Shown here: positions 34,601-37,600 of the stretch, piece by piece | Layout of the letters: each line of letters starts with the position of its first letter | Numbering within the stretch: the first letter of the stretch is position 1 | Translations under genes and position numbers: made by a program | Notes under the pieces: model-generated | Told to the model about the DNA's origin: nothing | Databases searched by the model: none | The model's input: only the letters and a program-made list of their open reading frames with translations | Assembly (NCBI RefSeq): GCF_004027225.2 | Contig: NC_044297.2 | Coordinates: forward strand, 471,569-535,568 | DNA length: 64,000 nucleotides | Direction: 5' to 3' | Source: Strigops habroptila | Taxonomy: Eukaryota > Chordata > Aves > Psittaciformes > Psittacidae

Positions 34601-37600
34601 CAGCCTGGAGAAGAGAAGCTGCGTGGAGACCTCAGAGCAGCTTCCAGGGTCTGAAGGGGGCTACAGGGATGCTGGAGAGGGACCTTCATCAGGGACTGGA
34701 GCGATAGGACAAGGGGTGATGGGTTCAAACTGAAACAGGGGAAGTTCAGGTTGGAGATAAGGCAGAAGCTCTTCCCTGTGAGGGTGCTGAGGCGCTGGCA
34801 CAGGGTGCCCAGAGAAGCTGTGGCTGCCCCATCCCTGGCAGTGTTCAAGGCCAGGTTGGACACAGGGGCTTGGAGCAACCTGCTCTAGTGGAAGGTGTCC
34901 CTGCCCATGGCAGGGGGTTGGAAGTGGATGATCCTAGGGTCCTTTCCAACCCAAACCATTCCATGATTCCATGATCTGCCTTCTCCAAAGCGTCTTTTTG
35001 CAAGTACAACCATACAGGAACACCAGCACACACTTTGAGGCTGGATTTAACTGCTCTGGTCCTAACCACGCATTTACCAGCACATACAAGAGCCAAATGC
35101 ATGGTGAGAGAAGGCTGAAGGTCTGGTGAGACCCTGGAGCCACCCGACAGCTGCCTGCCACAGGAGGCAGGACATTCCCCGCGCTCCATAAAGCTCTCTC
35201 CCAGCTTTGCACTGTACCTGTTATCGAAATAGAACAAGCCTTTGGCCGGGTCCACCCGCAGGAAGGTTGCCACGTCCTCGTAGTTGGGCAGGGTGGCACT
35301 CAACCCAACCAGCCGCACGTCCTCCTGGGTCATCTCGATGTTGCGGATGGCTCTGGCCACCAGCGACTCCAGGACGGGTCCTCGGTCGTCGTGCAGGAGG
35401 TGAATCTCATCCTGAAGATGAGGAGCAGCGTTAGCCCCGCTCAAACCAGCCCCATTTAACCCATTCGGGGGTTAGTTTCGTAATGGACCTGCTTGTGTGG
35501 AGGCTCAACCCACAGCTCACGGGTTAAAATCATGGAATCAACAAGGTTCAAAAGACCTTTAGGCTCATCAAGTCCAACCGTTCCCCAGCAGTGCCAAGGC
35601 CACCACGGCCCCATGGCACTGAGGCCTCGGCTACACGGGGTGTGAACACTTGCAGGGACGGTGACTCCAGCCCTGCCCTGGGCAGCCTGTTCCAATGCCT
35701 GAGCACCCTCTGGGGAAGGAATTGTTCCTCAGCTCCATCTAAACCTGCCCTGGTGCAGCTTGAGGCTGTTCCCTCTTGTCCCATCCCTTGCTCCTTGGGA
35801 GCAGAGACCAGCCCCAGCTCACCACAACCTCCTTTCAGGTAGCTGTAGCGAGTTATAAGGTTTAGTGGTGGCCTTGGCAGCCCTGGGGTGAAGACTGGAC
35901 TTGATGATCTTAAAGGTCTCTTCCAACCTGCTTGATTCAATGATTCTACGCTTCAAAGCCCAAGTCTCTCCACAACCAAGCACCAGGGACATCTTTAACC
36001 CCTAACGCGTGGTTGGGAACGGTAAGACCCTCACACTGCCCACCCTCAGCCCCCTGTCTGTGCCGGGGCCGTGCCGGCGCCGCTCACCAGGATGACCAGT
36101 CGCACGAGCTGGGTGTAGGTGCGCTCGCCTCCCTTGCGGGTGATGATGTCCCACTTCTCCGGGGTGCAGACGATGATCTGGGTGGCGCTGATTTCCTCCT
36201 TGCAGAGCTGGTGGTCCCCCGTCAGCTCGGCCACGTTGATGCCGTAGGTGGCCAGGCGCTAGGGGGAAGGATGTTATGTTGGATCAACGTGTTCCCTGGG
36301 GCGGTGGAGCCCCGGGATGCTCCCAAACAGCTTCACCCTCATCCCAGTGAAGCACTGGAAGAACCCCATTGGTTTCACAGCCCATGCTGACATCCAGAGC
36401 CCATATGGACAACCACACAGAGCCTGGTGAGCACAGGCTGCACCAGAGACTAAAACCAGCCCAAACTCATCCTCTCCCAACAAGCTCCTGTCAGAGCTTA
36501 GCTCCTTCTGGAAGCACAAAGTGAGAAGCCACCACAATTGAGCTGATCCTCCCCAGTCTCCAGCTCAAGCAGGGTAAGACCAACCCTCTCCTTTCCTTCC
36601 CAAAGCTGCCCATGTCCAACCCTCTCCTTTCCTTCCCAAAGCTGCCCATGTCCAACCCTCTTCTTTCCTTCCCAAAGCTGCCCATGTCCAACCCTCTCCT
36701 TACCTTCCCAAAGCTGCCCATGTCCAACCCTCTTCTTTCCTTCCCAAAGCTGCCCATGTCCAACCCTCTCCTTTCCTTCCCAAAGCTGCCCATGTCCAAC
36801 CCTCTCCTTTCCTTCCCAAAGCTGCCCATGTCCAACCCTCTTCTTTCCTTCCCAAAGCTGCCCATGTCCAACCCTCTCCTTACCTTCCCAAAGCTGCCCA
36901 TGTCCAACCCTCTCCTTACCTTCCCAAAGCTGCCCACCATCTCCTGCACCAAGGACCTCATGGGTGCGATGTAGATGATCTTGAAGTCATCCACGTTGAT
37001 GGTCCCGTCGATGTTGATGTGCTTCCCGATCTCCCGCAGCATGCACATCAGCGCCACGTTCGTCTTTCCAGCCCCCTGGAACACAACCAGAGCCAGACCC
37101 ATCAAACCCTCCTTGCCCCAGGTGAAGGATGACCCACAGCAGGCACTTCCCACCCCAATGGCTCATCCTTTGGGATCCCGTCGTGCCGGATCCGTACCGT
37201 GGGAGCGCACAGCAGCAGGTTCTCATCCGACTCCAGCGCGGCGCGGTAGAGCTTGCTCTGGATCCGGTTGAGGGTTTTAAAGCCCTCGAAGCCGGCCTGG
37301 GCGTACTTGGGCAGCTTCTCCACAGACACCAGTTGCTGGAAAGGGAAAACATGGAGCTCAACACCTTCGTTGCAGCACCTTGCAGGCGGTAGGGAACAGG
37401 AGACAGCTTGGAGACACCTGGGAACAGCAGGGTCACATTGTCTCTGGATCCCAGCCTGGTTTGGGTTGAAGGGACCTTAAAGCTCCTCCAGCTCCAACCC
37501 CTGCCACGGGCAGGGACACCTTCCACTAGAGCAGGTTGCTCCAAGCCCCTGTGTCCAACCTGGCCTTGAACACTGCCAGGGATGGGGCAGCCACAGCTCC

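Follow-up and report, generated by a model that had tools for sequence, protein, structure and literature searches.

The SNRNP200 locus and its exon-border array

The stretch analysed here (the window) comprises 64,000 nucleotides of Strigops habroptila contig NC_044297.2 (assembly GCF_004027225.2, forward-strand positions 471,569 to 535,568) and contains SNRNP200, the gene for the core splicing helicase Brr2, on the reverse strand. At the border of exon 13 and intron 13 of this gene lies a minisatellite whose units repeat the authentic 5' splice site, or donor, of the exon (Table 1). The gene model, read from 44522 down to 19693, yields a protein equal in length to hBrr2 in the Protein Data Bank (PDB; chain 3jcr_C); its exon limits were placed by eye and with a simple splice-site score, the human protein serving as guide. 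Exon 13 encodes GAGKTN...MVGSFGK and exon 14 RLATYG..., and the coding sequence, exon 13 included, is intact despite the array. By comparison with PDB sequences the exon 13/14 junction falls directly after the residue matching human K557, a position that fits the first RecA domain of Brr2. An earlier first-pass annotation had placed the residues that the extra donors would add in the N-terminal RecA domain of the active helicase cassette, and the junction agrees with that placement.

Tandem Repeats Finder (TRF) delimited the array at 36580-36936 with a period of 36, 9.9 copies, 97% match and no indels, for a total of 357 bp, and a script run over the ten units placed the exon-like last base of each at 36920 minus 36 x k. 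The array opens with the final 17 nt of exon 13, followed by the donor of that exon. The first-pass description of ten 36-bp units, the first being the real end of the exon and its donor, is thus borne out by TRF, the script and the gene model, and its span of 36580..37075 is right at the start, but the array ends at 36936, position 37075 being the start of exon 13. Apart from the end of the last unit, just two columns vary, at donor positions +2 and +6. A 27-base pattern with at most 3 mismatches occurs 10 times in the window, whereas 100 shuffles give an expectation of 0, and a 31-base unit pattern with 0 mismatches occurred at 10 places in the whole genome of 1,148,577,936 bases (89 contigs), all of them within the array. 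Across the SNRNP200 gene span, TRF and the gene model together gave one tandem array among the 44 introns. No structured-RNA family reached the Rfam gathering score anywhere in the window, and exact pattern scans of viral and prokaryote collections returned 0 matches, as expected.

Table 1. Coordinates of SNRNP200, its exon 13 array and the splice sites discussed (a slash marks the exon-intron border)
Feature	Position	Strand	Details	Basis
SNRNP200 (Brr2) coding region	19693..44522	-	45 exons, 2136 aa, 0 internal stops	gene model; agreement of exons 12-14 with Brr2 sequences in the PDB
Exon 13	36920..37075	-	156 nt, ending ...GSFGK, human residue 557	gene model; PDB comparison
Intron 13	36259..36919	-	661 nt, of which the array occupies 340 nt	gene model and TRF
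Exon 14	36088..36258	-	acceptor ...ccccctag/CGC	gene model
Minisatellite	36580..36936	-	ten 36-bp units arranged as A-A-B-C-C-B-A-B-C-C, the opening 17 nt being exonic	TRF, unit script, blastn-short, shift analysis
Authentic 5' splice site, unit 1	36914..36922	-	AAG/GTAAGG, last exon base 36920	leave-one-out score, rank 4 of the gene's 44 donors
Duplicate 5' splice site, unit 2	36878..36886	-	AAG/GTAAGG, predicted +12 aa in frame if used	unit script, donor score
Duplicate 5' splice site, unit 7	36698..36706	-	AAG/GTAAGG, predicted +72 aa in frame if used	unit script, donor score
Units 2-6	36721..36900	-	A B C C B, probable template of a higher-order duplication	5-unit shift gives fewest mismatches (2/177)
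Units 7-10	36580..36720	-	A B C C, probably duplicated as a block from units 2-5	2 mismatches in 144, both at array end

Donors within the array

The donor dinucleotide GT is kept in units 1, 2 and 7, while the other seven units carry GA and read AAG/GAAAGR. Donor strength was scored with a position matrix built from the 44 donors of SNRNP200 itself, each donor being left out when it was scored. The extra donors of units 2 and 7, with exon-end equivalents at 36884 and 36704, score 11.35, the same as the authentic donor, and the seven GA units among the nine extra ones score lower. Calculated pairing with the 5' end of U1 follows the same division, at -10.0 kcal/mol for the GT units and -5.3 or -4.8 kcal/mol for the GA units. 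The reading frame of exon 13 continues without a stop across the array until a TGA farther downstream in intron 13 ends it. Splicing from 36884 or 36704 would lengthen the coding sequence in frame by 36 or 216 nt, to predicted proteins of 2148 or 2208 aa. On these points, namely the shared GT-to-GA change, the two identical further donors, the open frame and the in-frame gain of 12 or 72 residues upon use, the first-pass annotation and the present results coincide.

The part of the protein that such an insertion would enter is conserved in length. Over a 119-aa stretch around the junction, the 19 closest distinct PDB chain sequences showed a net length difference of 0 in 13 cases, +1 in five, +5 in one and +12 in none; nine of these are nearly identical rows for Brr2, which lowers the number of independent comparisons, and the count leaves aside the remaining 38 of the 57 rows, which are more distant helicases. 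Since an insertion of 12 or 72 residues would fall within this length-conserved part of the helicase, heavy use of the extra donors would probably disrupt the protein. A search of the genome with the same 119-aa query found no retrocopy that would reveal a spliced form of SNRNP200: the five matches consisted of the two exons at the locus and three weaker matches on contig C6, which look like a paralogue, presumably ASCC3, and there was no second copy of the SNRNP200 exons.

History of the array

The order of the unit variants suggests how the array may have grown. We infer, as the simplest history, that the GA state arose once and that the third donor was copied from the second. Tandem duplication of a stretch across the border of exon 13 and intron 13 would have been followed by expansion within the intron to ten 36-bp units; in one early copy a single T>A substitution at +2 would have destroyed the donor, and that copy would have been amplified, with one G>A substitution at +6 arising on that background; and a five-unit block would have been duplicated later, carrying a second intact donor downstream. 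As units 7-10 equal units 2-5 but for two end bases, the donor of unit 7 fits a block copy of that of unit 2, and the three GT units need not be independent retentions. The division into three GT and seven GA units, which could look designed, fits a block copy together with one T>A change spread by duplication. Selection against decoy donors was also considered as the source of the seven GA units and is unneeded, a single substitution spread by duplication being sufficient.

By eye, the joints between units read ACATGGGCAG where the exon has AGATGGTGGGCAG (compared at 36936 and 36580-36590). The original duplicated stretch may have measured 39 bp, followed by a 3-bp loss and one substitution.

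Reading frame and position relative to expectation

An open frame across the array could be taken as a sign of coding function, and the first-pass annotation had drawn attention to it. When tandem repeats were simulated from the 16 exonic nt before and the 20 intronic nt after the border at each donor of the gene, 34 of the 44 were free of stops in the exon frame, and the actual array is stop-free in five of its six frames. In-frame openness is thus to be expected, as most SNRNP200 donors would give it, and the coding interpretation was rejected. Random placement of a 357-bp segment in SNRNP200, in a model that contains no selection against coding damage, spanned a donor in 56% of cases and a junction of either type in 70%, and therefore the position of the array by itself proves nothing. 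In the same simulation a coding overlap of 1-16 nt arose in 2.5% of placements; the real overlap is 17 nt.

A genome-wide census of motifs with three donor cores 15-45 nt apart gave 200 forward and 98 reverse matches, whereas a reversed-pattern control gave 544 and 471, all of these counts being inflated by overlapping matches within single arrays. As the control exceeds the census, donor-bearing arrays are not enriched by this count. Inspection on the plus strand of 28 of the first 30 loci listed (7 of 9 places), with peptides judged by eye and without a protein search, gave no convincing exon end. One of the census loci, L042 (G000:C2:67717884-67717954), has three donor-like cores (AGAAGGTGAG) spaced exactly 32 bp apart, and the units at G000:C3:24969783-24969855 contain TTTCAGGTGAGC, resembling joined acceptor and donor (AG/GT) sites.

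Comparison with known systems

Repeats that multiply donors have been described before. In human ABCA7, a variable number tandem repeat (VNTR) in intron 18 begins with the exon 18 donor, and retention of one unit accounts for 2 ± 1% of transcripts (PMC5954066). As in SNRNP200, the repeat begins at the authentic donor of an exon, and in ABCA7 the donor one unit downstream is used. The ABCA7 unit is 25 bp and its retention shifts the frame, whereas the SNRNP200 unit is 36 bp and in frame; the ABCA7 repeat is described, in the excerpt, as flanking its exon with no exonic part mentioned, whereas the SNRNP200 array includes 17 exonic nt; and the ABCA7 VNTR is polymorphic in length and tied to skipping of exon 19. 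By comparison with that VNTR, the SNRNP200 array keeps GT in only three of its ten units. The minisatellite of IFI6 (6-16, G1P3), a different and interferon-induced gene, supplies several donors, two downstream units being reported as donors (PMC4526556, citing Turri 1995). The SNRNP200 array likewise spans an authentic 5' splice site and repeats it, with full-strength donors kept in units 2 and 7, and so belongs with the donor-multiplying minisatellites, but donor use is reported for IFI6, whereas the extra donors of SNRNP200 are candidates.

The closest avian parallel is the exon stuttering described in chicken, in which exon edges with donors or acceptors are copied through introns (Hron et al. 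2026, PMC12954441). It affects 236 introns of 115 genes, with 190 of the introns on dot chromosomes and 46 elsewhere; the copied exon parts measure 20-187 bp, 20 being the limit of the screen, and the source lies within 1 base of the exon border in >90% of the published cases. Variation of intron length among individuals is a further mark of exon stuttering. The SNRNP200 array resembles these cases in consisting of direct tandem copies of a coding-exon edge and its donor in the adjoining intron, with the source at the border. A blastn-short comparison, run with the published settings plus restriction to the plus strand and a loose E-value, on SNRNP200 alone and one mononucleotide shuffle, found nine perfect 17-nt matches to positions 140-156 of the 156-nt exon 13, all inside intron 13 and at 34.2 bits, against a maximum of 24.3 bits in the shuffled introns and 30.2 bits for unrelated exon-intron pairs of the gene. 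The copies end at the last base of the exon, the border position that characterises exon stuttering. At 17 nt and 34.2 bits they fall short of the cut-off of the published screen (at least 20 nt and 42.1 bits), which is a detection limit and not part of the definition; the array fits the stated stuttering criterion, though not the published screen. The introns of chicken dot-chromosome genes are typically full of tandem repeats, in contrast to the single array in the 44 introns of SNRNP200, which has many dispersed repeats. SNRNP200 is unnamed in the main text of PMC12954441, whose 115-gene list sits in the supplement.

Two further reports bear on the sequence and on the gene. In the tandem repeats of UBC, dual-specific AGGT sites act as both donor and acceptor (PMC10809524), and the SNRNP200 array is similar in having AG/GT within units of a repeat whose period is a multiple of three; unlike UBC, it sits in an existing intron, and no pyrimidine tract was seen by eye ahead of the unit AGs. 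In a reporter, two SNRNP200 mutations reportedly favour splicing at a cryptic 5' splice site (PMC8985939, citing Cvackova 2014). This role of Brr2 in donor fidelity is a pleasing coincidence with the array and not evidence of a link.

Interpretation and alternatives

The most likely explanation for these observations, to which we assign a probability of roughly 0.7, is that the array is a near-neutral local duplication in which 36920 remains the dominant donor and 36884 and 36704 leak at a low level. The authentic donor would then yield nearly all SNRNP200 mRNA, and low-level use of the two copies would give small amounts of Brr2 lengthened in frame by 12 or 72 residues. Low-level leakage is favoured by the rate of one-unit retention in ABCA7, the closest analogue, together with the length conservation around the junction; the analysis covered one assembly of one individual. 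Several observations weigh against this explanation. Among 18,111 intronic positions scored in SNRNP200, only 36884 and 36704 reach the score of the authentic donor, and all three GT donors share identical sequence from -17 to at least +20. In predicted RNA the copies are the more accessible, with mean unpaired values of 0.86 and 0.95 against 0.67 for the authentic site. Purine-rich sequence separates the donors, and enhancers between competing donors have been reported to favour the downstream, intron-proximal one (PMC5585400), although the global analysis in that paper gives no distinct corroboration of an intron-proximal preference for SRSF1. No sequence feature was found that gives 36920 an advantage over its copies. 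Finally, the ABCA7 figure concerns a frameshifting form exposed to nonsense-mediated decay, and true donor use there may therefore be higher than the measured value.

The first-pass annotation had offered two readings, Brr2 isoforms that depend on repeat length and decoys that the spliceosome must ignore. In a rival explanation the copies are functional alternative donors, giving repeat-length-dependent Brr2 isoforms and perhaps reading out Brr2-dependent donor choice. That the extra donors are identical to the authentic one and in frame speaks for such a role, as do the reported effect of SNRNP200 mutations on a cryptic donor (PMC8985939) and the reported use of downstream units in IFI6 (PMC4526556). 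Against it, the insertion would enter a helicase region of conserved length, block copying fits the presence of the third donor, and an open frame is the default here. Functional isoforms are considered improbable, and a regulated Brr2 isoform dependent on repeat length, though conceivable, is unsupported. An extension of this idea, in which the array is a self-referring reporter of donor choice, with donors at 0, +36 and +216 nt corresponding to 0, 12 and 72 extra residues and an isoform ratio set by array length and Brr2-dependent selection that tunes Brr2 activity, is a long shot. At the opposite extreme, exon definition or the order of synthesis might fix splicing at 36920 and leave the array silent, its extra donors wholly unused. 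Normal Brr2 production must continue, and splice-site look-alikes in introns are generally presumed to go unused (PMC10809524). The abstract of the same paper adds, however, that splicing can employ many of them; donors within repeats are used in ABCA7 (PMC5954066) and reported as used in IFI6 (PMC4526556), and 36884 and 36704 are no weak look-alikes, being the only intronic sites in the gene to equal the authentic donor. A fully silent array is accordingly considered unlikely. The unit variants stand in an ordered higher-order pattern, and the array is just 357 bp, a length that an ordinary long read exceeds; an assembly artefact that inflated or collapsed the copy number is very unlikely on these grounds. 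Low-level leakage from a near-neutral duplication is the explanation that we retain.

Other repeats in the window

A second duplicated donor was observed at 50599-50681 on the forward strand, in a Sema-domain gene (Pfam PF01403) with an exon end of CGCTG/GTGAGTCC at 50602. It lies within a tandem repeat of about two 40-bp copies (TRF 86% match, 4% indels; 26/42 ungapped), and its copy at 50642, CTG/GTGGGTCC, scores 4.53 against 7.74; an addition of 40 bp would shift the frame. Comparison of the window with itself gave 22 intervals of dispersed repeats totalling 10,837 bases, 13 of them within SNRNP200, with identity of up to 95% among the 12 longest pairs listed; the intervals include 18468-19288, 34321-34975, 42628-43462 and 13181-13836, with 18 more. 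Beyond SNRNP200, TRF found dense minisatellite-like arrays at 1050-2169, 3907-4297, 46430-47038, 53800-54057, 61949-62108 and 63815-64000.

Significance

The array went unreported in the titles and abstract openings of the papers found on SNRNP200 with repeats or splicing and on exon stuttering. Since IFI6, ABCA7 and the chicken exon-edge copies precede it, donor-multiplying repeats are not a new phenomenon, and the SNRNP200 array adds a further case to a known class. It stands out for combining an in-frame unit and two perfect extra donors with a host gene that encodes a core splicing helicase. It constitutes a natural experiment on donor choice, with three identical donors in matched context differing mainly by position, and because the extra donors neither shift the frame nor create a stop, ratios of the resulting RNAs would show position effects without bias from decay. 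As the array also indicates, an exon edge can be copied even where tandem repeats do not fill the introns of the gene. Since its copies are shorter than the published screen accepts, the phenomenon may be commoner than counted. A consequence for the protein, if there is any, would concern an essential helicase.
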